This document shows, one piece after another, positions 1,559-60,173 of a DNA stretch of 64,000 nt (its first letter is position 1; each line of letters opens with the position of its first letter). The notes below the pieces were generated by a model. The model had not been told where the DNA came from. It searched no databases and saw only the letters and a program-made list of their open reading frames with translations. The translations under genes and the position numbers were made by a program. Where the stretch lies: positions 1-64,000 of the forward strand of contig CAIQOK010000092.1 of assembly GCA_903873415.1 (NCBI GenBank), written 5' to 3'. The DNA comes from an uncultured Verrucomicrobiota bacterium (GTDB taxonomy: Bacteria; Verrucomicrobiota; Verrucomicrobiia; Limisphaerales; CAIQOK01).

Positions 1559-2455
1559 TCAGGTCCATAGCTTTGATGGATAATCACCCCGGGCAATGAG
1601 AGCGCGGATGCTTTCCACCACGCGCGGACGATCCTCACGATAGGTGACACCAAACCAGGAGTCGGAGGACCGCAAGACCTTCACATTGGCCTGACGTCTG
1701 GCGACAAGGGCATTCACCGTGCTGGGTATATAGCACTCGGATTTAAGTTCTTGGCCGCTGTGCTGAAGGAATTCGGCGAATTCCACACGGAGTTGGGGGA
1801 ATATGGCAGGGGAAAAGCCCCAGAAATTCATCGATACGGCCTCGTCACCGGCAAGCCTCGTAATGTGGCCGTTGGGGTCCGTGTTTTTCGCCCCGGCACC
1901 GTCGCGCTCAATCTTGAGCATTTCGACGACGCTCAGGAGGCGGTGGTGTTCGTCCACCCGGCAAATACCGCGGGCGACGCTGCCGAAATCAGAGAGGGTG
2001 TTTCGGAGAATGAACCCCACCATCGCATAGTCGGGATTGGAGGAGGTCAAGTGGGCATTGAGCAGCCGGTAGGATTCCGCACCGTAAAAATCATCGGCGT
2101 TGATGGCGGCAAAAGGCTCGTTGATGACCCCCTCAGCCATAAGGATGGCGTGTGTGGTGCCCCAGGGTTTGGTGCGCCCGTGGGGAACCGGAATGCCGCC
2201 GGGCAAATCATCCAGCTCCTGAAACACGTATTGAACGGGCACACGACCGGCAAAGCGTGAACCGACGATTTCCCTGAAAGGTTGCTCGATATCGCGGCGG
2301 ATGACAAAGACAAGCTTTCCGAAACCCGCGCGAAGGGCATCGAAAATCGAATAGTCTATGATCGTCTCTCCAGCCGGACCGACGGGATCGATTTGTTTAA
2401 GGCCGCCATACCGGCTGCCCATTCCGGCTGCGAGAACAAGTAAGGTCGGTTTCAT
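1559..2455 (-). CDS. Nucleotidyltransferase, NDP-sugar pyrophosphorylase-like
   Basis: The product is a 298-residue GT-A fold nucleotidyltransferase that should activate a sugar phosphate with an NTP. It opens with the nucleotide-binding loop LVLAAGMGSRYGGLKQ, followed by a DYSIFDAL segment and the metal-binding region INADDFYG near residues 122-129. A longer frame opens 30 bases upstream at 2485, but the start at 2455 (MKPTLLVLAAG) puts the Rossmann-like strand directly at the N-terminus, as in the family. The GGLKQ signature resembles UTP-glucose-1-phosphate uridylyltransferase-like proteins common in Verrucomicrobiota and Bacteroidota, but the sugar cannot be told from sequence. It lies just beyond the terminator of the ribosomal operon on the same strand. 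Confidence 0.8.
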   Translation of the reverse strand: MKPTLLVLAAGMGSRYGGLKQIDPVGPAGETIIDYSIFDALRAGFGKLVFVIRRDIEQPFREIVGSRFAGRVPVQYVFQELDDLPGGIPVPHGRTKPWGTTHAILMAEGVINEPFAAINADDFYGAESYRLLNAHLTSSNPDYAMVGFILRNTLSDFGSVARGICRVDEHHRLLSVVEMLKIERDGAGAKNTDPNGHITRLAGDEAVSMNFWGFSPAIFPQLRVEFAEFLQHSGQELKSECYIPSTVNALVARRQANVKVLRSSDSWFGVTYREDRPRVVESIRALIARGDYPSKLWT

Positions 2456-2570
2456 TAGACCACAAGCATGGAGAACAAACCCCATGAGTGTCGACTAAGA
2501 ACTGCGCAAGGCAAACCGCTTCGGCACATGTGCTGGCATCCAGGGCAGAGACACCGCGGCGGGGTGAATA

Positions 2571-2602
2571 CAAGTAAAAAGCCCGATCGGGTGAGCGGGC
2601 TT
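2571..2602 (-). terminator. Rho-independent terminator of the ribosomal operon
   Basis: A 7-bp stem (AAGCCCG at 2579-2585 with CGGGCTT at 2596-2602) encloses a 10-base loop. On the minus strand the hairpin is followed by TTTTTACTTG. It lies 22 bases beyond the rplQ stop and is the natural 3' end of the operon. Confidence 0.85.
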
Positions 2603-2623
2603 GTAGAGACAACTAACAGACTA

Positions 2624-3043
2624 TCACTTGGCGGCGACTTTCGAATCATCCGCCTGCTTGACCTCGGCCGAAGATGTGGTGCCGGGTGCAAGGTCCACGA
2701 ACTCAAGAATGGCGAGCTGCGACGCATCCCCTTGACGCTGATGCATTTTGACAATCCGGGTGTAGCCGCCGCGGCGTTCCATCTGGGTCGGAGCGATCTC
2801 GTTGAAGAGGATTTTGACGACGTCGGCCTGATGCAATCGGGCAATGGCGAGACGACGGTCATGGACGGTGCCGTTCTTTCCAAGAGTAACGAGCTTCTCA
2901 GCAACGGAACGGGCTGCTTTGGCTTTGGCCAGCGTGGTGGTAACGCGTTTGTGAATAATAAGGCTGCACACCAAGTTGGCGAGCATGGCATTCCGGTGTT
3001 CGCCGGTGCGGCCCAACTTGGCGGTTCGCTTAAGGTGTCTCAT
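2624..3043 (-). CDS. rplQ: 50S ribosomal protein L17 (bL17)
   Basis: The 139-residue product is bL17, a protein of the large subunit near the polypeptide exit region. The N-terminus MRHLKRTAKLGRTGEHR and the RLHQADVVKILF region identify it. It is about a dozen residues longer than the E. coli protein because of an Ala/Lys/Asp tail after about residue 120 (SAEVKQADDSKVAAK). It is the last gene of the operon, 6 bases after rpoA. The start is preceded by AAAAATTT directly before ATG and has no Shine-Dalgarno sequence. Confidence 0.97.
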   Translation of the reverse strand: MRHLKRTAKLGRTGEHRNAMLANLVCSLIIHKRVTTTLAKAKAARSVAEKLVTLGKNGTVHDRRLAIARLHQADVVKILFNEIAPTQMERRGGYTRIVKMHQRQGDASQLAILEFVDLAPGTTSSAEVKQADDSKVAAK

Positions 3044-3049
3044 AAATTT

Positions 3050-4069
3050 TTATTGGATGGTGGGTGCCTTGTCTAAAATGGGCCCTTCAAGGATGTCCGC
3101 CTCGAAAGTCATCCCCAAAGCCAGGCCAAGGGCGGTTAGTTTATCCTTGATTTCATTCAGGGATTTCTTTCCGAAATTGCGATACTTGAGCATCTCGGCC
3201 TCGCTTTTCAAGGCAAGCTGCCCGACGGTGGTGATGTTCGCGTTGTTGAGGCAATTGGCTGCGCGGACGCTGAGCTCGATTTCATTGACGCTCATGTGCA
3301 GCAGCTTTTTGAGTTTGGTCTTTTCCTCATCCTGCTTGTCAACCACTTCCTCAAACTCAACCGCAGTCTTGTCGTATCCCACAAAAACATCCAAGTGGTG
3401 CGACAGAATGGCAGAGGCTTGGGTCAGCGCATCGTCGGGTGAGATACGCCCGTCAGTCCACACTTCCAGGACCAAGCGGTCATAGTCCGTCCGCTGACCG
3501 ACGCGCGCGCTTTCAACGCCGTAACGAACGCGGGTCACAGGTGAGAAGAGGGAGTCAATGGCAATGACACCAATGGCCTGTCCTGACTTCTTGTTTTCGT
3601 CCCCGGGACAGTAGCCGCGGCCTACGCGCACTTCGAGTTCCATCTCGAACTTTTTCTTCTTGTCGATCGTGCAGATATGCTGGCCGGGATTGACCAGTTC
3701 CATGTTTTGATTGACTTGGATATCCGCTGCGGTGACGGCGCCCTCCCTGCTTACGGACAGGAGCAGTGTTTGAGGTTCGCGGCTGTGTGCCTTGAAGATG
3801 ACCTTTTTGAGGTTCAAGACGATGTCCGTGACATCCTCTACGACACCTTCAACGGTGGCAAACTCATGCATGGCGCCATCAATCTTTATGGATGTGATGG
3901 CGGCGCCTTCAAGGGAGGAAAGCAGGACGCGGCGCAAAGAGTTGCCTACCGTGTGCCCGTAACCCGTTTCAAAGGGCTCAGCGAGGAACTTCGCGTAGAC
4001 ATCAGTTGCGGTCGACTCCTCCTTGGTCAAACGCTTTGGCATTTCAAACCGACCTAGACGTACTGGCAT
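3050..4069 (-). CDS. rpoA: DNA-directed RNA polymerase subunit alpha
   Basis: The 339-residue product is the alpha subunit that nucleates core RNA polymerase assembly. The N-terminal dimerisation domain (about residues 1-240) carries HTVGNSLRRVLLSSLEGAA. After an acidic linker (VVDKQDEEKTK) the C-terminal domain (about 258-325) keeps the R and N of VRAANCL (R269, N272), equivalent to E. coli R265 and N268 that contact UP elements and activators. It lies between rpsD and rplQ, as in the alpha operon of most bacteria. The start at 4069 has a modest GAAAG upstream. A second in-frame Met at residue 10 (MPKRLTK) could be an alternative start. Confidence 0.97.
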   Translation of the reverse strand: MPVRLGRFEMPKRLTKEESTATDVYAKFLAEPFETGYGHTVGNSLRRVLLSSLEGAAITSIKIDGAMHEFATVEGVVEDVTDIVLNLKKVIFKAHSREPQTLLLSVSREGAVTAADIQVNQNMELVNPGQHICTIDKKKKFEMELEVRVGRGYCPGDENKKSGQAIGVIAIDSLFSPVTRVRYGVESARVGQRTDYDRLVLEVWTDGRISPDDALTQASAILSHHLDVFVGYDKTAVEFEEVVDKQDEEKTKLKKLLHMSVNEIELSVRAANCLNNANITTVGQLALKSEAEMLKYRNFGKKSLNEIKDKLTALGLALGMTFEADILEGPILDKAPTIQ

Positions 4070-4174
4070 AATTTTCTTTCGACAATTTTAATCTGGCTTG
4101 GTCGATCTCCGATTCCCGCGGAGTGAAACAGGCCCGTATAATTGTCAGTTGTTCTTGGGTTACAAGGGTGTTTA

Positions 4175-4783
4175 CTATCGGGAATAGAACTCCACCACAG
4201 CTTGTTCGTTAGCTATGGGATTGATTTCGTCGCGTGTCGGTATCCGCATGACAACGCCTTTGAACTCGTCCTTGGTCAAGGAGAGCCAGTCAGGAACCAA
4301 CCGACTGGTGGCACCCTCGAGGTTCTTGCCGGCAAGCTGACGCGAGACACTGTTGTTCTTAGCGGTGATCACATCGTTAACCTTGAGAGCGTAGGAAGGA
4401 ATATTAACCTTTCGGCCGTTGACCTGAATGTGACCGTGACAGACCATTTGACGGGCGGCCGCGCGGGAGTTTGCGAAGCCTAGGTGATAAACCACATTGT
4501 CCAGGCGGGTCTCCAGGATTTGAAGCATCTGCTCGCCGGTTACGCCACGACGGCGGAGGGCTTTTTGATAAACCCCGCGGAACTGGCGTTCCATGAGGCC
4601 GTAGAAGTAACGCAACTTCTGTTTCTCAATCAAACCCAGACCGTAGTCGGTGTGTTTGCGGCGGGACTTCGGACCATGAACGCCCGGGCCATAATTGCGG
4701 CGTTCGAGGTATTTCGAAGGGCCGAAGATCGGAACACCAAAGCGACGGCTAATGCGGACGCGAGGACCTGTATAACGAGCCAT
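4175..4783 (-). CDS. rpsD: 30S ribosomal protein S4 (uS4)
   Basis: The 202-residue product is uS4, a primary 16S rRNA-binding protein and, in many bacteria, the translational repressor of the alpha operon. It starts MARYTGPRVRISRRFG and has the S4 RNA-binding domain from about residue 92 (RLDNVVYHLGFANSRAAARQ). Length and ending (VEFYSR) are normal for the family. It is separated from rpsK by 34 bases and from rpoA by 105 bases, the longest gap in this part of the operon, where a regulatory structure could sit. The start is preceded by AATTAATTT with no Shine-Dalgarno sequence. Confidence 0.97.
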   Translation of the reverse strand: MARYTGPRVRISRRFGVPIFGPSKYLERRNYGPGVHGPKSRRKHTDYGLGLIEKQKLRYFYGLMERQFRGVYQKALRRRGVTGEQMLQILETRLDNVVYHLGFANSRAAARQMVCHGHIQVNGRKVNIPSYALKVNDVITAKNNSVSRQLAGKNLEGATSRLVPDWLSLTKDEFKGVVMRIPTRDEINPIANEQAVVEFYSR

Positions 4784-4817
4784 AAATTAATTGGAAAAAT
4801 TGAGGATTAAAATCGGA

Positions 4818-5399
4818 CTAGACACGGCGTTTCTTGCGCGGACGGCAGCCATTGTGAGGCACGGGAGTCATATCCTTAATGGTGCTGATCTCAAGCCCGA
4901 TTGCCTGAAGGGCGCGTATCGCGGATTCGCGGCCGGATCCGGGACCCTTGACACGGATTTCGACTTCCTTCATTCCGTGGGACATTGCTTGACGGGCGGC
5001 GTCTTGGGCGACCTGCTGAGCCGCGTAGGCGGTGCTCTTGCGGGAACCCTTAAATCCAACACGACCGGCGCTTGACCATCCAAGCAGATTGCCCTGCATG
5101 TCGGTGATGGTCACTTGGGTGTTGTTGAATGTGGCAAGAATGTTGGCGATGCCTACGCTTATATTCTTGGCGCCCTTGGCCTTGACAATTTTCTTGCCGG
5201 CCAAATCGTCAGCAAGGAGTTCGGCGGCAGTGGGGGCTACGCCTGCCACCGGGACTACGGGTGCCTTGGTTGCATCGGCGGTAGCGGTGGACGCTTTGTC
5301 AGAAGGCTGTTTTCCAGCAGACTTCTCCTGCTTTTCAGCCGGAGGTTTGGCGTCTTTTTCCTTTTTAGGGGCGGGTGTTTTCTTGATCTCGTCGGACAT
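4818..5399 (-). CDS. rpsK: 30S ribosomal protein S11 (uS11) with a long N-terminal extension
   Basis: The conserved S11 core occupies about residues 78-193 ([14 protein letters not shown] ... [10 protein letters not shown]) and forms part of the small-subunit platform. Before it lies an extension of about 60 residues, rich in Lys, Pro, Ala and Glu ([18 protein letters not shown] and onward), making the protein 193 residues against about 130 in most bacteria. An open frame continues upstream to 5543 but overlaps rpsM, so the ATG at 5399, 6 bases after the rpsM stop and preceded by AATTTTT, is the likely start. A core-only start is not available because no Met or good GTG lies at the domain border. 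Confidence 0.92.
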
Positions 5400-31819: not shown

Positions 31820-31894
31820 GCGTGCTTAGCTCAGTGGTAGAGCATTTCCTTCACACGGAAGGGGTCGCAGGTTCGAACCCTGCAGCGCGCACCA
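31820..31894 (+). tRNA. tRNA-Val (anticodon CAC)
   Basis: The sequence folds as a standard cloverleaf: acceptor GCGTGCT pairs with AGCGCGC, D arm GCTC/GAGC, anticodon stem TTTCC/GGAAG with loop TTCACAC, and T arm GCAGG-TTCGAAC-CCTGC. The anticodon is CAC. CCA is encoded at 31892-31894 after the discriminator A. Confidence 0.95.
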
Positions 31895-45061: not shown

Positions 45062-45147
45062 TGGTGGTAGGTGATGGATTCGAACCATCGAAGGCGTGAG
45101 CCAGCAGATTTACAGTCTGCCCCCGTTGGCCACTTGGGTAACCTACC
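45062..45147 (-). tRNA. tRNA-Tyr (anticodon GTA)
   Basis: On the minus strand the acceptor GGTAGGT pairs with ACCTACC, followed by discriminator A and an encoded CCA (45062-45064). The anticodon stem CAGA/TCTG with loop CTGTAAA gives anticodon GTA, and a long variable arm marks it as class II. The T arm is GATGG-TTCGAAT-CCATC. Confidence 0.95.
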
Positions 45148-50578: not shown

Positions 50579-52312
50579 TCATAGTGGAAATCCCCTCGCC
50601 GCATCATCGGGCGTTGCAATGGCGGCATCCCTACCCGATGTCTGCCCCGCAACCGGGATCCCATCCGCAGCGGCGACCTGCTGCACGGCCGGCTCGGCTG
50701 CCTCCAGAGTGAGCATCGGCTCTGTTGCCGCAACTCCGCTTGAGGGTTCCAGTGGCGAAGCCCCGGGCAATGAAAAGTCGAGCGCCCCCCTGTGGCTGTC
50801 GGGAGCGGCCAGCTCCAACCGCGCCTGGGCCCGCTGAATGAGGGCAAGCATGGTAATGGAAGCGGCGGCCAGTTTCTCCGCCTCCTGAATCCTGGCAAAC
50901 TCTCCATAGACCTCCTCCCTCAAGGGCTCCTCCCGGGTGACCAACTCCTGGCCGTTGGTGGCCCGCATCGCCTGCAGGACATGATGGGCATTGATGCTGT
51001 CGAGCGGCCGGGCCGGGGTGAAGGCCGCCTCGGCGCCCTGGATTTCGGTCACCAGGCGCGCGGCCACCAACGTTTGTAAAACCTGCTGCACCAACCGGCT
51101 GGGGACGGCCAATTCGCGCGACATTTCCCGCAATGTCGGCGGTGGCAGTCCGCCTTGGAAACGCTGACCGATGCAGGTCAGGAGGCGCAAAGCGACGAAT
51201 TCGCGGCCGCGCTGGTTGACGTTTTCCGCTATTTTCTCCTGCAAATAAAGCGTGCGGTTCTGGAATGCATAGGCCAGTTGCGCGCCGAGCAACAGGACCA
51301 GCCATGACAAATAGACCCCCACCATGAACACCGGGACCAGGCCGAGACTGCCGTAGATTTTGAAATTGGTCACGACCCGCGAGATGAACAGAAACCCAGA
51401 CACATTGATAAGTTGCCAAAGAGAACCGGCAACGACACCGCCCACCAAGGCGGCGCTGAAGTTGACCTTGGTGTTGGGCACCAACTGATACAGCAGGGCG
51501 AAAGCCAACCAAAGCAGCAGCAGGGTGAGCACCGGAAAAAACATCGGACCGACAACAGGCATATTGCGCATCAACTCCTGCGTCGCCTGAAGATACGGAC
51601 CCCCGGTCAGACCCAGAGCGGCGATCACCAGCAACGGCCCCAGGGTGATCGTCGTCCAATGCAAAACAATCCGCAGCAGCCAGTTGCGACCGCGCGTCAC
51701 CCCCCAGATGTCGTTGAAGGTGGTTTCAATCTGGCTGAGCATGCGCAGGGCCACAAACACGAGCAGCACCATCCCCGTGACGCCCAGCGTGCCGCTGCGG
51801 GTGTTTTGTATGAACTCATGGATTTTCCGCGCGGCTTCACGCTGCGCCGTCGCCACCCGGTCCTCCCCGGCAGCGGCCGATCCCGGCAGTGCCGCGGCGT
51901 TGCCGGACACGCCTGGAGGGGCCGAAAGCGCAGTCGATCCGCCCTCAGTCGGGGCCCCTTGGGGAGATGTTTCCGGCAAAGCCCCCGCCGCCCCGCGCAA
52001 TGGCGCCGCGGCCGAAGGCACCACTCCCGAAACAAATTGTTCGATAAAGTGATAAATCCGCTCCTCCCCCTCGTCCTTAAGCAGGCTACTGGTCACGCCA
52101 ATGGCCAGAGCACAGAGGGGAATGATGGCCAAAAGGGTCGAGTAAGACAGGGCCGAGGCGCGGACCGGACATCGGTTGCCGACAAAGCTCTTGCCCACGA
52201 GGACCCAGAAATGCAGGAACTGATGCAGGCCCGTCACTTCGGCGTCTGAGCGCAGGGTGCTTACATCCAGAAGCGATCGGATTTTTAGAAAGCTGTTTTT
52301 TTGTTTTGCCAT
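50579..52312 (-). CDS. YihY/BrkB-family integral membrane protein with a low-complexity insert
   Basis: The 577-residue protein has the YihY core: NRCPVRASALSYSTLLAIIPLCALAIG, IETTFNDIWGVTRGRNW and FNSKVNFSAALVGGVVAG-type blocks, with about six membrane segments. Between TM1 and TM2 is an insert of about 70 residues rich in Ala, Gly, Pro and Ser (residues about 100-170), and after the core (from about 370) a winged-helix-like segment LAVPSRLVQQVLQTLVAARLV and a long tail. The ATG at 52312 is chosen; a TTG at 52333 would add seven residues. The family was once annotated as ribonuclease BN but its role is not settled. Confidence 0.8.
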   Translation of the reverse strand: MAKQKNSFLKIRSLLDVSTLRSDAEVTGLHQFLHFWVLVGKSFVGNRCPVRASALSYSTLLAIIPLCALAIGVTSSLLKDEGEERIYHFIEQFVSGVVPSAAAPLRGAAGALPETSPQGAPTEGGSTALSAPPGVSGNAAALPGSAAAGEDRVATAQREAARKIHEFIQNTRSGTLGVTGMVLLVFVALRMLSQIETTFNDIWGVTRGRNWLLRIVLHWTTITLGPLLVIAALGLTGGPYLQATQELMRNMPVVGPMFFPVLTLLLLWLAFALLYQLVPNTKVNFSAALVGGVVAGSLWQLINVSGFLFISRVVTNFKIYGSLGLVPVFMVGVYLSWLVLLLGAQLAYAFQNRTLYLQEKIAENVNQRGREFVALRLLTCIGQRFQGGLPPPTLREMSRELAVPSRLVQQVLQTLVAARLVTEIQGAEAAFTPARPLDSINAHHVLQAMRATNGQELVTREEPLREEVYGEFARIQEAEKLAAASITMLALIQRAQARLELAAPDSHRGALDFSLPGASPLEPSSGVAATEPMLTLEAAEPAVQQVAAADGIPVAGQTSGRDAAIATPDDAARGFPL

Positions 52313-52534
52313 GCTGTTAAACAACCCTACCAAGGCCCGCGGCGGGTGACGAGCGGCAACTCCCGGTCACGCCGGGACACCCAACTCTCAACTTGCGAGC
52401 CATGCCGGGAAATCACCCCGCATCGGCTGGTCTGGCAATATCACGAACTGCAGACCCATTGCCCATGTGCGCGCCGGAGGATTGGAGTCACTCGTCGCTT
52501 GTCACCTCTTGCGCGCCACTGTTAAGTTTAGGGC

Positions 52535-55120
52535 ATGGCACGAAAACCAGCGGCAGACTCAGAACCATTGCACGGCTTCGACGATATCATCGGCGTGGCT
52601 TCGATTGCGGCGGCACTTCTGCTGATGATCGCCCAGTTCTCCTTTGATGCGAACGACTTGTCGTCGCACATCAATCCGCCCAACAAGCCGGCGCACAACT
52701 GGATCGGCCCTTCGGGGGCGGGGCTGGCGCACAGCTCCTTTCAATGCCTTGGGGCGGCCGCCTATCTGGTTCCTTTCCTGCTCACCGCCTTCGGGCTGTC
52801 CCACTTTCTCAAAAGCCTGACGCACCTTCGCGCACGTCAAAACTGGATGCTGCTCTGGTGCTCGGTGATGATGGTTTCCCTGACCGGTCTGCTCCACCTG
52901 CTGGACAACCCTCTGCAACATATCAAGGAGTCTCTGGACGCTCCCTCTGCCGGAGGCTGGCTGGGATACCTGCCCTATACTTTTGGTTTTTGGGCTCTAG
53001 GCAATTTCGGGGCCACCATTGTGCACTCCGCCCTGCTGCTCATCAGCGTGCTCTTCCTAACCAATTTCCGCCTGGGCGACTGGGTGCGCCGCCTCCCCAT
53101 CCGCAAGAATGCCGCCGGGATCGAACTTTCCGACGAGGAAATGGTGCTGGAACGAAAACTGCAAGAAACGAGAAAACAACGCGAGAAACTGGAGCGCGAG
53201 CCCGGTGTGAGCACCAACAGCGGCTTGGGCGCAGACGGGCAACCCGTGCCGGAACCTACCATACGCGACCTCAGCGTGCCCCAACCCAAACCCCGCGGCC
53301 GGAAAAACGACCCCTCAGAACCGTCCCAAGACACTCATCTCGCCGAGGGGGTTGAAGTCATATCCGCCCGTGAACTCGCGGCCGCGGACTCCTCCGCCGC
53401 ATCGGAGCGGAAACAGGAATCCACCACAGAAGCAACGGTTCATAAAAACGGTGATTCCCCCGCCAACGGCCCGGACAGTTCCACCCTGATGCCCCGAACG
53501 CGGCCCACGCTCAAACGAAAACCTGTCACCGTGGCCTCCGTCCCGATGATCGGGAATTACAAGCTACCGACACTCGAATTCCTGCAGCACGCCGACATGA
53601 CCGCCAAGCCCACCGAATCGAAGGAGGAGCTCATGGCCAATGCCCGGCTGATGCAGCAGACCCTGACCCAGTTCCAAATCGAGGTTTCACTGGGCGACAT
53701 CACCAAGGGGCCCACCATCACCCGATACGAGTTGCATCCCGCGCCCGGGGTGAAGCTTGAAAAAATCGTCAACCTCTCAAACAATATCGCCGCCGCCCTC
53801 AAAGCAGAACGCATCAACATACTGGCCCCGGTTCCCGGCAAAAGTTCCGTCGGCGTGGAGGTGCCCAACCTCATCAAGACCAAGGTCATCATGCGCGACC
53901 TCTTCGAATCAGACGAATGGCGCAACACCAAAGCCCGAATCCCCATCGCCTTGGGCAAGGACGTTTACGGGCAACCCATCATTGCCGATCTGGCGGAGAT
54001 GCCCCACCTCCTGATCGCCGGCAGCACCGGCTCCGGCAAATCCGTCTGCATCAATTCCATCATCGCCTCGCTCCTCTACCGCTTCACCCCGGACCAGATG
54101 CGTTTTGTAATGATCGATCCGAAGGTGGTCGAACTCCAGCTCTACAATGTGCTGCCGCACCTCGTGGTCCCGGTGGTAACCGACGCCAAAAAAGTGATCT
54201 TGGCGCTGCGCTGGGTCATCAATGAGATGGAAAAGCGCTACCAGATTTTCGCCCGCGTCGGCATTAAAAACATCAAATCATTCAACGAACGCCCGAAAAA
54301 CAACCCGCTCCCGATCGTCGAACCCGAACTGCCCCTCACGGCAAAAAAGGAGAAGGTCGAACCCGGGGCTGACGGCTTCGCCGTGGAAGTCGACGAGGAA
54401 ATTGTCGTCCCGCGCGAGGATGAAATCGTCATCCCCGAAAAACTCTCCTACATCGTCGTCATCATTGATGAACTGGCGGACCTGATGCTCGTCGCACCTG
54501 CCGAGGTGGAAATGGCCATCGCCCGGATCACCCAAATGGCCCGCGCCGCCGGCATCCACTGCATCGTCGCCACCCAGCGCCCCTCGGTGGATGTCATCAC
54601 CGGCGTCATCAAGTCCAACATTCCCGCGCGAATCGCCTTCCAAGTGGCCGCGGCGGTGGACTCACGCACAATTCTCGACGCCAAAGGGGCCGACAAGCTG
54701 CTGGGCAAGGGCGACATGCTTTATCTGCCCCCCGGCTCCGCCAACCTCAAACGCGCCCAAGGCGCTCTCATAACGGATCAGGAGATACAGAGCGCGGTCG
54801 ACTTCATCGCCAAGCAAGGCAAACCCAGTTATGAATTGGAAATCCACAAACAGCTCGCCAAATCAACCGGTTCGATGCCGGGCGAAGGTGGTATCAATGA
54901 GGACGAAGAACTGATCGAAAACTGCATCGAAGTCATCCGCAGCGAACAGAAAGCCAGCGTCTCGTTGCTTCAACGCCGCCTCAAACTCGGCTACGGCCGC
55001 GCCGCCCGCATCATGGATGAGTTGGAAAACCGGGGCATCGTCGGCCCCAACAAAGGGGCGGAACCACGCGATATCCTCATCGATCTGGACGGGGGCGGAG
55101 CCGACGGCGCGGGACAATGA
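52535..55120 (+). CDS. ftsK: DNA translocase FtsK
   Basis: The 861-residue protein coordinates chromosome dimer resolution with septation. About four hydrophobic segments lie in residues 15-185, followed by a Lys/Glu/Pro-rich linker (about 190-340), then the RecA-like motor with Walker A AGSTGSGKS (K502) and a Walker B near IIDELADLML, and the C-terminal winged-helix gamma domain (ELIENCIEVIRSEQ ... LENRGIVGP) that reads KOPS sequences. An insert of about 40 residues (PELPLTAKKEKVEPGADGFA and neighbours) lies between the sensor region and Walker B. Length and order are otherwise normal. It converges with the polymerase fusion gene, 18 bases apart. Confidence 0.95.
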   Translation: MARKPAADSEPLHGFDDIIGVASIAAALLLMIAQFSFDANDLSSHINPPNKPAHNWIGPSGAGLAHSSFQCLGAAAYLVPFLLTAFGLSHFLKSLTHLRARQNWMLLWCSVMMVSLTGLLHLLDNPLQHIKESLDAPSAGGWLGYLPYTFGFWALGNFGATIVHSALLLISVLFLTNFRLGDWVRRLPIRKNAAGIELSDEEMVLERKLQETRKQREKLEREPGVSTNSGLGADGQPVPEPTIRDLSVPQPKPRGRKNDPSEPSQDTHLAEGVEVISARELAAADSSAASERKQESTTEATVHKNGDSPANGPDSSTLMPRTRPTLKRKPVTVASVPMIGNYKLPTLEFLQHADMTAKPTESKEELMANARLMQQTLTQFQIEVSLGDITKGPTITRYELHPAPGVKLEKIVNLSNNIAAALKAERINILAPVPGKSSVGVEVPNLIKTKVIMRDLFESDEWRNTKARIPIALGKDVYGQPIIADLAEMPHLLIAGSTGSGKSVCINSIIASLLYRFTPDQMRFVMIDPKVVELQLYNVLPHLVVPVVTDAKKVILALRWVINEMEKRYQIFARVGIKNIKSFNERPKNNPLPIVEPELPLTAKKEKVEPGADGFAVEVDEEIVVPREDEIVIPEKLSYIVVIIDELADLMLVAPAEVEMAIARITQMARAAGIHCIVATQRPSVDVITGVIKSNIPARIAFQVAAAVDSRTILDAKGADKLLGKGDMLYLPPGSANLKRAQGALITDQEIQSAVDFIAKQGKPSYELEIHKQLAKSTGSMPGEGGINEDEELIENCIEVIRSEQKASVSLLQRRLKLGYGRAARIMDELENRGIVGPNKGAEPRDILIDLDGGGADGAGQ

Positions 55121-55138
55121 GCTGAAGGTGCTGACAAT

Positions 55139-58100
55139 TTATTTTCCTGACTCGGCGGTGTTGCGGGTCCTTGGCTTGCCGGCCCGCAGAACCCGGAGCG
55201 AAAAGCCTCGCCCGTTTTCAAACGGCTCCACCCGAGCCTCCACTTCCAGCACCGGATACCGCACGGTGGCCAGACCATAACTCTGGTAGGTCCGGGCAAA
55301 AAGCTCCGTCGCCACTATGCCGCTCCAATCAGCCAGCGAAAGAAATTTCATCGGCTCACCCGTCGACTGATGGTGCGTGCGCTGCTCCACCACCAGACCA
55401 CAGACGGTCACAATCTGTCCGACAAATTCTCCAAGCCGGTTCACCGGACAATAGGTGTCCCAGGCAATATCCGCGAAAACCTCAAGCGGATGCCCGCTCA
55501 CGGGAAATCCGAACAGCTCCGTTTCCCACAGCAACCGCTCCTGATACGTGGGCTCGTGCAAGGACATTTGCGGCAGCGAAACTGGATCGACCGTAGGCAG
55601 CAGCCAACCCTGACCCGAAACAGCGTTTCCACCGCCGAGTTGCAAGAGTTGTTGCGCCTGCCAGAACTGGCGGGTCCGAGTCTCACCAAACCCGTCAAAA
55701 CCTCCGGCGCGGATCAGGGATTCCAAATCGCCACCTTCCGGAGCCACCCGCCGGAAAAAATCCGGCATTGAATCGAACGGCCCCACGGCACGCGCCTCCA
55801 GCATCACCTCCACCGTTCGTGCTGTCAGACCTTTGACCCGGGAGATCGGCACGCGAAGGACCCGACCATGCACGGCATAGGCCGGGCCCGGTTCGTTCAC
55901 CGAAGGGGGCAGGAATGACAATCCCAGCCGGTGGCATTCGAGCACATAGACCAGAGGATGATAGAAGCCCTTGCCATTTGTCAGCACGGCAGCCATGAAT
56001 TCCGCAGGGAAATAGTGTTTCAGCCATGCCGATTGATAGGCCTCGACGCCATAAGCCGTGCTGTGTGCTTTGCAGAAGGCATAGCCGGCAAAGCCGCTGA
56101 CCAGCTCCCAGACCTCGGCTGTCTTTTCCGGAGGGTGTCCGCGGGCGTGGGCGGATTGGAAAAATTCCAGCCGCAGTTCCTCAATCACTGCCCGCTTTTG
56201 TTTGGCAAGCGCGCGCCGCAGTAGATCGGCCCGGCCCGGCGCCATGCCGGCAAAGGCTTCGCAGACCTGGAGGATATGCTCCTCGTAGACCACCAGCCCA
56301 TAGGTGCTGCGCAGACACGACTCCAACGAAGGATGGGGATAGGTCACCGGCTCCAGCCCCTGATAACGACGGGTGAAGGCCTGCTTCTTGCCCTCGTTGG
56401 CAGCACCGGGCCTGATCACGCTGACGATGGCGATGATCCCGTCAATCTCCCGCACCCCGCACATCTGGCAGAGGCTCGTCATGGCCGGCGATTCGATGTG
56501 ATGCACCGCGCGGGCGCCGCCACCGGCAATCATCTCCCAGACGGCGGTATCCTGCCAGGGTTCGACCGCCTGCGGGTCTCCCAGCAACAGACGGCCTCCG
56601 GCTTTTTCCCGCGCGAAACAGCGTTCCAGGTCAACGATTATGCCCCGGTCGGCCAACATGTGTTTCACATCGCGCAACACGGCCAGACCGCCTTGGGCAA
56701 GAATATCCATCTTCACCAACCCCACCGCTTCCACGGCGTCCATGTCGAAATGAGTGGTGGGCAAACCCTTGTTGGAAATGAAGGTCGGGGTCAGCTCCTC
56801 CAGCGGCTGCCGCGACAACACCAGACCGCAGGGATGCATCTTGGGGTATCGGGGGACGCCGTCGAGCAGGGCGGCCATTTCCAGCGCCGTGCGGTAGGGT
56901 TCTTCGTCGATCGGGAGGTCGCGGTTTTCCGGGCTCGCACGCAGTTTCCCGCGCAAACCGGATTCACCCGACACCTCATCGGAGTTGCACCCGCCACCGA
57001 ACCCCCAGGGAAAATGATCGGTGAACCGCCGGACTTCGCGCTCGGCAACTCCGAGGACTTTGGCCGATTCCGCAAACGCGCTCCGGGCCTGGAAGGTGGA
57101 GAATCCGCCGACCACCGCACACTGCGCCGCACCGTATTTCCCGAACACGATCTTCACCACCTCATCCTTCGCATCATGCGCAAAATCAATGTCGATGTCC
57201 GGCAGCTTGTTCAGCGCCATGCGTTCGCGGTTGAGAAAACGACGGAAATAAAGTTCGAACCGGATCGGACAAACCCCGCTGATGCCAAGGGAGTAGCAAA
57301 CCAGCGAATCCGCTGCGCTGCCACGCGTGATCCATTCCAACCCGCGTCGCCGGCACTCCTGCAGCAGATCCCAGGTGATGAGAAAATAGTCTTCGTAGCC
57401 GACAGCGCCGATGATTCCCAGCTCCTCGTCCAACTGGGCGTGGACGGCAGGGAGTTGGGGTGGGCGGTAAAGACGTTGCGCCCCTTCCCAAGCCAATCGC
57501 CGTAGAAATGCGGTGGCCGTCGAACCGTCCGGCGTGCGGAATTCCGGGAACTGCGGTTTGCCCAAGGGCAGCTCAAAGCGGCAGCGCTCCGCAATCTCCT
57601 CCGTGTGCCTGAGCCATTCGGGATGCTCCCGGCACGCCGCAGCCATATCCAACGGCATGCGGAAATGAAACCGGCCACCCTCACGCTTGGCCGGATGCTT
57701 CTCTCCCAGCAGGGTGAGGGTATGGATGCTTTGCAGGATATCAAATTTCCGCCGGTCCTCCGGAGCGGCATAATGCACGGCGGGTGCCGCAATCCCGCGA
57801 AACTCCGTCACTTCATCCCGCGTCGTTATCAGGCTGTAGAATCGGCCCGGAAACAAGTCCGCCATGCGCATATCTCCGCTGACTGCAATCAAGCCACCGG
57901 TGAGGCCATCAAGCTCTTCGCGCCGGAATGGCGCTCGCTGCCGGGCTGCGACGGATGATTCCTCGCCGACATTGGCGAACCGCTCCGCATGGCGGGAGAG
58001 CAGCCGGCAGAGATTGGGATAACCCGAGGCTGATTCCACATGAAGCAGGAGCGGCTGGTCATCCACTGTCACCTCTACGCCCAAAATCGGTTGGATCCCC

Positions 58101-59506
58101 GCCTCCCGGGCGGCTTGGGTGAACTCCACCGCGCCGTGCAAGTTGCCGGTGTCCGTCAGCGCCACGGACTTCAAGCCGTGTTGCCTGGCCAATCCCACAA
58201 TGGCGGCAGGCGAAAGCGTGGAATCCAGAAACGAATAGTGACTGCGAACACGCAACGGCACATAGGATTGCACCTGCCCGGGCATAGCCCGGCGACGGAT
58301 TTGTGGCGGAGCCGGCTGTGACAAGGGCCGTGCGGCATCTTCGGGCCGATTCATCAGCAGAAAGTCGTGCCCTCGAAGTATTACTTCATGTCCCCGACTG
58401 CGGCGCAACTCGTCGATCACCCCAGCCAACCGCGACCGGGCTTCCTGCCGCTGAACGGATATTTCAAGCGGCAGCTCGCTGCGAAACCGGCCGTCGTAAA
58501 TCTGGGAGAGCTTCAACGAGACCAGGCGAAGGCTCACGCGCCGTTTCCAAGCCGCCCGCAGCAGAACGCGCAAACGCCCATACACCTCGGTTTCAAGATC
58601 CGTCGGCTCGCTCAAGCTTTCCCCCGCTTGGTCCTCGGCCATGTTGTTATAGCGCACCTTCACGGTCAGCGTGCGGATGCAGCGCCCCTCCTCGCGGACT
58701 TTGGAAAACAAGTTGTCCGCCATGCGCCGCAGCGTGGCTTCGGCATAATCCTCGTCCGTCAGGTCGGCCGCGAACGTCTCCTGCTGGCTGAAGGATTTTT
58801 GGGGTGTGCGGGCCGGGATCAACGGACGCTCATCAATGCCGCGGGCAAACTGGCGGATGCCCGCCGCCGCAGGACCAAGCAGCAGCCCGAGCAGATCCAG
58901 CGGGGTGGCGGCGACATGCGAGATGCGCGCCAGGCCGGCGGCATTGAGCCGCGCACTGGTTTTTGGACCGATACCCGGCAGCCACTGGTTTGGCAACGGC
59001 TGGAGAAAAGCCGCCTCGTCTCCGGGCGATACCGTCGTGAAGCCCGAGGGCTTGTTCAGTTTCGAAGCCACCGCGCTGACGAGCTTGCTGGTGGCGATGC
59101 CTTCGCTGACGTTGATTTTCAGCTTCTGCCCGATGGCATTGCGAATCGTCTGGGCAATCTCGACCGCCGGACGGCGCGCGGCCGAAAGGTCAAAATACCC
59201 CTCATCAATCGAAGTCTGCTCCACCTCCGGTGTGAAGTCGTAACAGTAGCCAAACATCCAGTTGGAAAACTGTTCGTAGCGCTCAAAATCGCCGGGCAAT
59301 ACGATCAGCTTCGGGCACAGCTTCCGGGCCCGGGCGGTGGGCATCGGCGTATAGATGCCGAATCGCCGCGCCTCATACGAGGCCGAGGCGATGATGCCGC
59401 GTTTCTCGCCGCCAACGGCGATGGGCCGGCCCCGCAATTTCGGGTCCGACGCCTGCTCGACCGCGGCGAAAAAAGCATCCGCATCCAGATGAACAATGGT
59501 CCGCAT
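55139..59506 (-). CDS. Fusion DNA polymerase: Y-family (DinB/Pol IV type) joined to C-family (DnaE type)
   Basis: One uninterrupted 1455-codon frame encodes two polymerases. Residues 1 to about 345 form a complete Y-family polymerase: HLDADAFFAAVE with D8, SIDEGYFDLS with D101/E102 (the Pol IV catalytic pair), a helix-hairpin-helix near 174-190 (WLPGIGPKTSARLNAAG), and a little-finger domain (TLTVKVRYNNM, VSLRLVSLKLS). A charged linker (about 360-412, ending SQPAPPQIRRRAMPGQVQ) leads into a PHP domain (about 415-640, first ligands lost as in many DnaE), then the DnaE palm/fingers with PDIDIDF (D770, D772), VKMD (D934), a tandem HhH near 1219-1238, QMSLH at 1313-1317 in the place of the E. coli clamp-binding QADMF, and an OB fold (1361-1440). 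The gene starts 3 bases after lexA. Confidence 0.93.
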   Translation of the reverse strand: MRTIVHLDADAFFAAVEQASDPKLRGRPIAVGGEKRGIIASASYEARRFGIYTPMPTARARKLCPKLIVLPGDFERYEQFSNWMFGYCYDFTPEVEQTSIDEGYFDLSAARRPAVEIAQTIRNAIGQKLKINVSEGIATSKLVSAVASKLNKPSGFTTVSPGDEAAFLQPLPNQWLPGIGPKTSARLNAAGLARISHVAATPLDLLGLLLGPAAAGIRQFARGIDERPLIPARTPQKSFSQQETFAADLTDEDYAEATLRRMADNLFSKVREEGRCIRTLTVKVRYNNMAEDQAGESLSEPTDLETEVYGRLRVLLRAAWKRRVSLRLVSLKLSQIYDGRFRSELPLEISVQRQEARSRLAGVIDELRRSRGHEVILRGHDFLLMNRPEDAARPLSQPAPPQIRRRAMPGQVQSYVPLRVRSHYSFLDSTLSPAAIVGLARQHGLKSVALTDTGNLHGAVEFTQAAREAGIQPILGVEVTVDDQPLLLHVESASGYPNLCRLLSRHAERFANVGEESSVAARQRAPFRREELDGLTGGLIAVSGDMRMADLFPGRFYSLITTRDEVTEFRGIAAPAVHYAAPEDRRKFDILQSIHTLTLLGEKHPAKREGGRFHFRMPLDMAAACREHPEWLRHTEEIAERCRFELPLGKPQFPEFRTPDGSTATAFLRRLAWEGAQRLYRPPQLPAVHAQLDEELGIIGAVGYEDYFLITWDLLQECRRRGLEWITRGSAADSLVCYSLGISGVCPIRFELYFRRFLNRERMALNKLPDIDIDFAHDAKDEVVKIVFGKYGAAQCAVVGGFSTFQARSAFAESAKVLGVAEREVRRFTDHFPWGFGGGCNSDEVSGESGLRGKLRASPENRDLPIDEEPYRTALEMAALLDGVPRYPKMHPCGLVLSRQPLEELTPTFISNKGLPTTHFDMDAVEAVGLVKMDILAQGGLAVLRDVKHMLADRGIIVDLERCFAREKAGGRLLLGDPQAVEPWQDTAVWEMIAGGGARAVHHIESPAMTSLCQMCGVREIDGIIAIVSVIRPGAANEGKKQAFTRRYQGLEPVTYPHPSLESCLRSTYGLVVYEEHILQVCEAFAGMAPGRADLLRRALAKQKRAVIEELRLEFFQSAHARGHPPEKTAEVWELVSGFAGYAFCKAHSTAYGVEAYQSAWLKHYFPAEFMAAVLTNGKGFYHPLVYVLECHRLGLSFLPPSVNEPGPAYAVHGRVLRVPISRVKGLTARTVEVMLEARAVGPFDSMPDFFRRVAPEGGDLESLIRAGGFDGFGETRTRQFWQAQQLLQLGGGNAVSGQGWLLPTVDPVSLPQMSLHEPTYQERLLWETELFGFPVSGHPLEVFADIAWDTYCPVNRLGEFVGQIVTVCGLVVEQRTHHQSTGEPMKFLSLADWSGIVATELFARTYQSYGLATVRYPVLEVEARVEPFENGRGFSLRVLRAGKPRTRNTAESGK

Positions 59507-59509
59507 GGT

Positions 59510-60133
59510 TCATTCCCGCGCCTTTCGGATCAGCCCCCGGAACACCCCCTGAATCATGAGTTCCTCGGACGGGATCAGGTCCGGGTATTTGGGGTTTTCC
59601 GCCTTGAGGAAGGGGCGGTGGTTTTTCAGCAGAAAGGTTTTGAGCGTGCTTTTCCGGTCGATCAGCGCCGCCACAATCTGCCCGTGCCTCGGTTCGGGAC
59701 CATGCTCCAGAATCACAATGTCGCCGGAGCAGATATGCCGGCCGATCATCGAATCGCCCGTCACCCGCAGGGCGAAGGTGTTGCGGGTCGGACTAAATCC
59801 GATCGTGGCGACATCCACCGAAACGCAGCCCTCGGGATCCGATTCCCGGTCGTCACCGAAGCCGGCCGGGATGGAGCCGAAGAGGGGGATATCCACGACG
59901 TGTTGGCGCAGCTTCTGCAGCGGATTGGTCGGGCGCAGCGACCGGGCCTTGCCGGGGGTGGATTCCAGAAAGCCTTTGTGCTTGAGGGCCTCCAGATGGC
60001 AGGCCGCCGCCCGGTGCGCCCGGAATCCGAAGTGCGCCGCGATCTCACGCAGGGTGGGACCTGGGCGCCCCGCCTGGTTCTCCGCCTGTAGAAACTCCAA
60101 CACCTTTTTTTGAATCTGGGTCAATCCGGTCAT
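59510..60133 (-). CDS. lexA: LexA repressor, short HTH variant, SOS regulator
   Basis: The 207-residue repressor has a winged-helix DNA-binding domain (HTH about residues 26-48, PTLREIAAHFGFRAHRAAAC), the self-cleavage site Ala90-Gly91 in GSIPAGFG, and the Ser128/Lys165 dyad in TGDSMIG and STLKTF. The 37-residue Ser-Lys spacing equals that of E. coli LexA. An in-frame ATG at 60145 lies inside the operator palindrome and would add four residues; the promoter places the likely transcript start close to the ATG at 60133, so that start is preferred. It heads a two-gene operon with the fusion polymerase and is divergent from der. Confidence 0.93.
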   Translation of the reverse strand: MTGLTQIQKKVLEFLQAENQAGRPGPTLREIAAHFGFRAHRAAACHLEALKHKGFLESTPGKARSLRPTNPLQKLRQHVVDIPLFGSIPAGFGDDRESDPEGCVSVDVATIGFSPTRNTFALRVTGDSMIGRHICSGDIVILEHGPEPRHGQIVAALIDRKSTLKTFLLKNHRPFLKAENPKYPDLIPSEELMIQGVFRGLIRKARE

Positions 60134-60134
60134 A

Positions 60135-60152
60135 ACTATCCACATGGATAGT
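60135..60152. promoter_or_regulatory. LexA operator (SOS box), 18-bp palindrome
   Basis: The minus-strand sequence ACTATCCATGTGGATAGT is a perfect 8+2+8 inverted repeat (60135-60152). It begins 2 bases upstream of the lexA ATG at 60133 and covers the -10 region of the promoter, as expected for autorepression. It is unlike the E. coli CTGT(N8)ACAG and Bacillus GAAC(N4)GTTC boxes. That LexA binds it is inferred from position. Confidence 0.75.
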
Positions 60153-60173
60153 ATTCAGACGCGGCGTTGTCAA
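60145..60173 (-). promoter_or_regulatory. Probable lexA-polymerase operon promoter
   Basis: TTGACA (60168-60173, minus strand) is followed after 17 bases by TATCCA (60145-60150). The -10 hexamer falls inside the LexA palindrome. The predicted transcription start would be a few bases before the ATG at 60133, so the mRNA is probably leaderless or nearly so. Confidence 0.65.

Follow-up and report, generated by a model that had tools for sequence, protein, structure and literature searches.

Systems that pair a Y-family DNA polymerase (PolY) with the C-family polymerase DnaE2, including a Bacteroidetes pair of two active polymerases, consist of separate proteins throughout the available portions of two surveys (PMC6511836, PMC12926913), and cooperation between Y- and C-family enzymes at lesions has so far been studied in multi-subunit bacterial complexes. 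Here we analyze a gene that joins both polymerases in one chain, polY::dnaE2, carried on a stretch of 64,000 nucleotides (nt) of contig CAIQOK010000092.1 (assembly GCA_903873415.1) from an uncultured Verrucomicrobiota bacterium, hereafter the window. Positions 55139 to 59506 of the reverse strand form one frame of 1,455 residues with its sole stop at the end, encoding in order a Y-family polymerase (IMS, IMS_C), a predicted-disordered linker and a DnaE-type C-family polymerase (Table 1). The fusion is real, conserved and lineage-specific, and belongs as a variant to the DnaE2-PolY kind of mutasome. A sequence-only reading of the window had described a stop-free frame from an ATG at 59506 to 55139 with a DinB/Pol IV set, a linker and a DnaE set; the translation agrees, and the domain search that it called for placed every Pfam domain above its curated cut-off (IMS at 144.9 bits, IMS_C, PHP, DNA_pol3_alpha at 215.8 bits, DNA_pol3_finger and HHH_6).

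The nearest known system appears to be the PolY and DnaE2(B) pair of Bacteroidetes, judging from the available text of PMC6511836 and PMC12926913. The DnaE2B-PolY-RecA module of the Cellulophaga algicola type likewise combines an apparently active PolY with an apparently active DnaE2, has no ImuA or ImuB, and is encoded by adjacent genes (plasmid examples L095-L099); its PolY bears a RecA-NT motif, of which the fusion has a putative counterpart. It consists of two separate chains and its PolY keeps a QxxLF-type clamp motif, whereas the fusion has one chain and a degenerate clamp motif. Unfused lexA-polY-dnaE2 operons (L141-L144, L148) share the gene order, and the fusion's own profiles match most of both halves there; they differ by a stop codon between the polymerases. 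The ImuA-ImuB-DnaE2 system is also often lexA-linked and also joins a Y-family member to a DnaE2 without a C-terminal domain and with a disrupted PHP site, but it needs ImuA and an inactive ImuB with an ImuB-C domain in three chains, in contrast to the intact Y site and single chain of the window. Pol V (UmuC-UmuD'-RecA) may resemble the fusion in the putative RecA-NT-like stretch and resembles it, for one fusion clade, in the UmuD-like layout of an S24 protein lacking the helix-turn-helix (HTH) domain; it differs in that the window's Y half reaches 58.6 bits with the UmuC model NF002955 against a cut-off of 431, and in that DnaE2 is fused. Escherichia coli Pol IV (DinB) shares its fold and its catalytic residues with the Y half, which matches PRK02406, but is a free chain. 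Pol IV carries a C-terminal clamp peptide.

The sequence-only reading had likewise proposed a fusion of two whole polymerases, which the Pfam domains in one frame bear out, and had compared it with ImuABC, which needs correction because ImuB is catalytically dead while the Y site here is intact. We rejected membership in ImuABC: the fusion is the sole IMS protein found in the genome and has an intact active site, and no convincing ImuA was found with one ImuA query from Novosphingobium (best match 17.2 bits, E 0.0045). One RecA exceeded its cut-off. That reading knew of no published description, and the surveys of PolY-DnaE2 systems, as far as their available text extends, contain no fusion. 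Literature searches, whose coverage stopped short of supplements and of Erill 2006/2016, did not find the fusion in print. In the available text of PMC12926913 no word starts with 'fusion' and 'fused' occurs twice, on other matters; that of PMC3919608 names UDG and Lar as the sole untypical domains among 1,590 C-family sequences; and those of PMC3765255 and PMC8565304 place dinB and dnaE in operons, with no fusion seen there.

We scanned genome contigs with six peptides of this one protein and recovered 78 related loci, a design that distant fusions elsewhere would escape, given that all queries derive from a single protein. The entire fusion occurred in one frame at 57 of these loci, while the other 21 showed contig-end cuts, frameshifts, an interrupting stop or one half alone. 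The 57 are not all independent, as several stem from one genome (L044, L050 and L074 from JAIPJY; L061 and L065 from JABARQ; L028 and L067 from CAIRYQ). Locus titles mostly named Verrucomicrobia or a group inside Verrucomicrobia; the exceptions, by title label alone, are L018 ('Klebsiella pneumoniae'), L080 ('Acidobacteria') and L039, L052 and L064 (simply a bacterium). Among the sources of fusion-bearing loci are Brevifollis gellanilyticus, a cultured isolate (L035), and one single-cell genome (L019). A whole-genome search gave a complete single-frame match in 40 of 146 genomes of the window's order, its own included, a set that overlaps in part with the assemblies behind the 78 loci; one of the 40 (G384) is a single contig of ∼4.7 Mb. 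In a sample of the phylum only 2 of 276 genomes, again including its own, held a complete fusion, so the distribution is lineage-restricted and patchy. Two to three complete copies per genome were seen in JAIPJY, JABARQ, CAIRYQ, G381 and G434, and each of the seven loci named above for the first three has its own upstream lexA or S24 gene. At L118 (positions 2185-5340) a second, separate Y-family polymerase gene lies immediately ahead of lexA, which is followed by the beginning of a fusion truncated at the end of the contig.

Outside the window's phylum, no complete stop-free fusion was present among the matches listed for 149 genomes of one other group. Large frames in this group (G460, G473 and others) resembled fusions, and none of ten opened loci was fused: five are lexA-polY-dnaE2, two polY-dnaE2, one dnaE2 with a polY piece at a contig end, and two a dnaE2 half near a contig end. 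In none of 1,341 matching phage records did a single location cover 80% of the fusion query. Among the 5,000 plasmid records considered at least 44 had such a location, with each of the 40 matches listed falling in two pieces, and none of the nine opened among those 40 had both halves in one frame.

Both halves retain their catalytic residues across the 58 sequences compared (57 complete loci and the window). The Y half combines IMS and IMS_C with the catalytic D, D and E of Y-family polymerases: D8 and E102 are invariant and D101 is present in 57 (E in L061). At residue 13, which we take to be the Y-family steric-gate position, 56 sequences have F and the other 2 have Y. The C-family residues D770, D772 and D934 are present in all 58. 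Mean identity to the window is 66% over residues 1-385 and 69% over 661-1200, falling to 18% in the linker, which is unconserved by alignment and spans 33 to 140 residues (median 43) between the fixed columns D381 and L418, with ∼30 in the window's linker proper. Nei-Gojobori ratios of nonsynonymous to synonymous substitution (dN/dS), calculated for eight hand-picked close pairs, were 0.03-0.21 for the Y half and 0.04-0.18 for the C-family core; PHP gave 0.13-0.47 over seven pairs, the C-terminal part 0.08-0.31 and the linker, where defined, 0.06-0.68, a noisy figure from 28-36 codons. These estimates indicate that both polymerase halves are under purifying selection.

In NCBIfam the Y half exceeds the cut-off of the DNA polymerase IV model PRK02406 (268 bits against 256), as the DnaE half does that of the superfamily model TIGR00594 (575 against 434). 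An AlphaFold2 model of residues 1-1195 (predicted local distance difference test, pLDDT, 82.6; predicted template modeling score, pTM, 0.65) has confident domains and a linker predicted to be disordered (pLDDT <50 at residues 388-411). The predicted fold of residues 410-1195 resembles E. coli Pol III alpha 2hnh (Z 41.8, 4.0 Å, 739 aligned) and that of residues 1-337 resembles E. coli Pol IV 4r8u (Z 25.5, 6.7 Å, 326 aligned).

For the DnaE half, a DnaE2-type identity is the best reading. The marks of DnaE2 given in the available text of PMC3919608 and PMC12926913 are a disrupted PHP metal site and the lack of the C-terminal domain. At the first two His positions of the PHP metal site the window has R-x-R, against H-x-H in the genome's own, separate DnaE1 on a different contig, and among the 58 sequences His stands at 419 in 2, at 421 in 20 and at both in 1; judged on these two positions, the site is disrupted as in DnaE2. 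There is also no room for the C-terminal, tau-binding domain, as the best PDB match (3e0d) stops at its residue 1107 of 1220, corresponding to residue 1428 of a chain that ends at 1455. In trees, which were quick IQ-TREE runs with few DnaE2 references, the DnaE half joined the DnaE2 rows apart from 6 DnaE1 rows (Shimodaira-Hasegawa-like approximate likelihood ratio 100).

The trees held 29 of the 57 complete loci together with L083, the window and split rows (2 DnaE, 3 Y), with L028 represented in the DnaE tree by its last 951 residues; in view of long branches, a second C-family tree omitted the Streptomyces DnaE2 and a second Y-family tree omitted the Streptomyces and Desulfosarcina rows. 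In the phylogeny of the halves, which the sequence-only reading had suggested, fused and split rows formed a single clade, supported at 100 both for the 33 DnaE halves and for the 34 Y halves. Unfused relatives are found as polY-dnaE2 pairs on Bacteroidota plasmids (L095-L099), in lexA-DUF72-polY-dnaE order on a Desulfosarcina plasmid, and as lexA-polY-dnaE2 operons at 5 of 10 opened loci of G433's phylum (L141, L142, L143, L144, L148). G004, a genome from the same phylum as the window, encodes a DnaE2 that stands alone and branches as sister to the fused DnaE2 halves; the 10 kb examined there showed no related PolY. In G339 and G358 the halves lie on separate contigs, and both trees group each half with the same fused sequences; in these draft genomes (the start codon of the G339 DnaE half is ambiguous) the arrangement is most simply read as fission after fusion. 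In G354 the Y half stands alone, adjoining lexA. G391 was dropped as a split fusion, both of its halves terminating at contig ends. Given that other lineages carry the two genes unfused, in lexA-polY-dnaE2 operons or as polY-dnaE2 pairs, the history looks like a known DnaE2B-PolY-RecA module that fused once and split again in two metagenome-assembled genomes (MAGs).

The fusion ATG lies 3 nt past the stop codon of lexA on the same strand, and the lexA product is the sole LexA_DNA_bind match of the genome (assembly 97.8% complete, 189 contigs). Among 55 complete fusions with at least 700 bases upstream, 39 have lexA and 13 a LexA-derived S24 gene, 52 in all, on the same strand no more than 475 nt upstream; in the remaining three, lexA is 3.9 kb away (L075), on the other strand (L045) or not found (L070). 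Upstream of the window's lexA lies the palindrome ACTATCCATGTGGATAGT, a candidate LexA operator whose inner 16-mer has no second exact copy in the genome. Upstream of lexA-type loci the best inverted repeat had arms of at least 6 in 35 of 48; on average 5.9 of 30 shuffled controls equaled or exceeded the observed inverted-repeat value, which makes single palindrome sites only suggestive, and the recurrence of a ATACTnnnCAnnTGnnnAGTAT-like form at the same upstream place is the better argument for an operator. Genome-wide matches to the palindrome with up to 2 mismatches were about as frequent as those to a control (68 versus 61). The palindrome arms at lexA vary among genomes (ACTATCC, ACTGTTC, ACTGTCC, ACTACTC). 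It is as if LexA specificity were drifting fast in this lineage.

At 16 loci (L035, L036, L037, L038, L044, L046, L050, L056, L059, L061, L065, L071, L074, L076, L078 and L083) the upstream gene encodes instead a short S24 protein, in frames of 151-222 codons that match the window LexA only from residue 58-86 on. Peptidase_S24 was present and LexA_DNA_bind absent in all four tested, and all nine aligned S24 proteins retained the Ala-Gly cleavage site and the catalytic Ser and Lys. The S24 proteins look like LexA that lost its DNA-binding HTH domain and became UmuD-like, with LexA derivation suggested by a higher score with the LexA than with the UmuD model, both below cut-off. The sequence TGTTC-N4-GAACA, published as the LexA box of Verrucomicrobium spinosum, stands upstream in 15 of 15 S24 loci tested (L083 outside this set) versus 6 of 48 lexA-type loci; it is absent at the window's lexA, and the window holds one one-mismatch match (16705) where 1.9 are expected by chance. 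The linker motif R[VTA]L[RKL]xRP occurs in all 13 complete fusions with an S24 gene, in 2 of the 42 fusions, the window's among them, whose locus has a full-length LexA, and in none of the 3 where no such gene was seen. Labels of the S24 type are mostly Verrucomicrobiaceae, and L055, labelled Prosthecobacter, has a full LexA instead. Since the six of the 16 S24 loci sampled in the trees form one clade, the S24 gene and linker motif may be one correlated change, not thirteen. Within a single lineage this SOS cassette occurs in a LexA-linked and in a UmuD-like-linked form.

Clamp and RecA motifs were compared by eye in an alignment (A1) of 26 loci and the window, 27 fused rows in all; a further alignment (A2) covered 47 of 51 listed loci. 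The VIA-align rows span single domains. No fused row of the 27 had QxxLF at the Y-half clamp position, the nearest being QLPLE (L046) and ELDLF (L070) and the window having SELPL, while all five Bacteroidota PolY partners carry QIDLF, QINLF or QMDLF there. The clamp-like site of the DnaE2 half reads QxxL[LIF] in 18 rows, xxxLF without Q in 7 and neither in 2 (L045, L070). Residues 359-381 resemble the N terminus of RecA when set beside RecA and the motif in the available text of PMC6511836, and a helix is predicted at 349-371, after the little finger, in the AlphaFold2 model. RecA may dock at residues 359-381.

We hypothesize, with moderate confidence, that the fusion acts as a translesion polymerase in a single chain, inducible by DNA damage: a mutasome of the PolY-DnaE2B kind with both polymerase subunits in one protein. 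LexA would repress the lexA-fusion operon until activated RecA (RecA*) cleaves it; RecA would dock at the RecA-NT-like stretch beside the linker; the Y-family site would insert opposite the lesion; and the flexible linker would allow the primer end to pass to the DnaE2 site for extension without proofreading, the PHP site of that half being disrupted and its tau-binding domain missing. The clamp would be held mainly through the DnaE2 half (QGWLL, 1299-1303), because the corresponding motif of the Y half is degenerate. It is plausible that one chain carries out both lesion bypass and extension, and we infer how the two active sites would cooperate. A normally multi-protein damage-bypass machine would thereby become a single chain, and a welded chain that looks active at both sites and is sometimes re-split makes the question of handover directly testable. 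We offer only tentatively, as a possibility in which we place much less confidence, the extended form of this proposal: an insert-and-extend mutasome whose active sites share a clamp contact in the DnaE2 half and a RecA contact in the Y half, with the lexA of one mostly Verrucomicrobiaceae clade turned into a UmuD-like cleavable partner that might bind R[VTA]L[RKL]xRP, in effect a hybrid of Pol V and the DnaE2 mutasome.

Several observations weigh against the proposal of a damage-inducible single-chain polymerase. The proposed activity, expression and roles in mutagenesis are read from sequence. In NCBIfam the general Pol III alpha model PRK05673 gives the DnaE half 625 bits against a cut-off of 1002, and the error-prone model PRK05672 gives it a lower 495 against 939, so that neither cut-off is reached. 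The pTM of 0.65 gives nothing firm on the relative placement of the halves, and the model ends at residue 1195. The clamp motif of the DnaE2 half is not universal among the 27 rows; as it is incomplete, and as DnaE2 clamp motifs are weak in general according to the available text of PMC3919608, clamp contact through this half is uncertain. Putative RecA binding depends on likeness judged by eye. The 3.8 kb surrounding recA contain no close copy of the operator candidate, the best site agreeing at 9 of 14 positions, and, with genome-wide matches at control level, a wider LexA regulon is not shown. Natural splits show that one chain is not strictly needed.

Such splits bear on an alternative that we regard as fairly unlikely, in which two independent polymerases merely share expression, fusion serving to fix a 1:1 stoichiometry and no substrate being handed from one site to the other. 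The operon ancestry, the unconserved linker of widely varying length and the two relocated splits in MAGs are in its favor, but the split halves keep the same fused neighbors in both trees, which fits joint action without proving it. We also judge it unlikely that the Y half is mainly an ImuB-like scaffold delivering the DnaE2 half, as the synthesizing enzyme, to RecA and the clamp. Although the Y-family member of ImuA-ImuB-DnaE2 is a dead adaptor (PMC6511836, available text) and the RecA-NT-like stretch lies in the Y half beside the linker, the three Y-family acidic positions are kept together in 57 of 58 sequences with F or Y at residue 13, dN/dS is equally low in the Y half and the C-family core, and a degenerate clamp motif would be odd in a clamp adaptor. 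Two ordinary proteins might instead arise by proteolysis of the fusion or from an internal start giving free DnaE2, as the disordered, unconserved linker and the natural split versions would allow; this seems distinctly improbable, given that only 20 of 58 linkers contain Met (ATG starts considered, not GTG or TTG) and that the fused form is kept across deep branches. An assembly or frameshift artefact, a doubt raised by the sequence-only reading and suggested by the 189-contig origin of the window, is refuted by recurrence across many assemblies, with the fusion in a single frame at 57 of 78 loci and the isolate L035, the single-cell genome L019 and the one-contig genome G384 among the carriers.

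Table 1. Features of the polY::dnaE2 locus, in window coordinates.
Feature	Position	Strand	Evidence
polY::dnaE2 fusion gene, 1,455 aa	55139..59506	-	translation, Pfam/NCBIfam, recurrence among loci
Y-family catalytic domain (IMS, residues 7-149); D8, D101, E102	59060..59488	-	Pfam; residue conservation
Y-family little finger (IMS_C, residues 237-336)	58499..58798	-	Pfam
Y-family clamp motif position, degenerate: SELPL, residues 343-347	58466..58480	-	alignment by eye
RecA-NT-like stretch, residues 359-381; predicted helix 349-371	58364..58432	-	by eye; AlphaFold2 model
Variable linker, residues 386-414	58265..58351	-	low identity, variable length, low pLDDT
PHP domain, residues 418-546, metal site disrupted	57869..58255	-	Pfam; residue comparison
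C-family palm/thumb (DNA_pol3_alpha, residues 667-937); D770, D772, D934	56696..57508	-	Pfam; residue conservation
C-family fingers (DNA_pol3_finger, residues 983-1122)	56141..56560	-	Pfam
HhH domain (HHH_6, residues 1195-1279)	55670..55924	-	Pfam
Clamp-motif-like QGWLL of DnaE2 half, residues 1299-1303	55598..55612	-	alignment by eye
lexA (likely start ATG at 60133)	59510..60145	-	TIGR00498 134.5 bits vs cut-off 110.95
Palindrome ACTATCCATGTGGATAGT, LexA-operator candidate	60135..60152	.	inverted-repeat comparison; between TTGACA and lexA
TTGACA, -35-like box before lexA	60168..60173	-	by eye

Elsewhere in the window, ftsK on the forward strand converges with the fusion on the reverse strand (52535-55139), their ends lying 18 nt apart. 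A reverse-strand frame at 50582-52333 encodes a BrkB-type domain followed by an Rrf2-like stretch (26.8 bits against a cut-off of 30) and is possibly another fusion. The window also carries tRNA-Val(cac) at 31820-31894 on the forward strand and tRNA-Tyr(gta) at 45062-45147 on the reverse strand.

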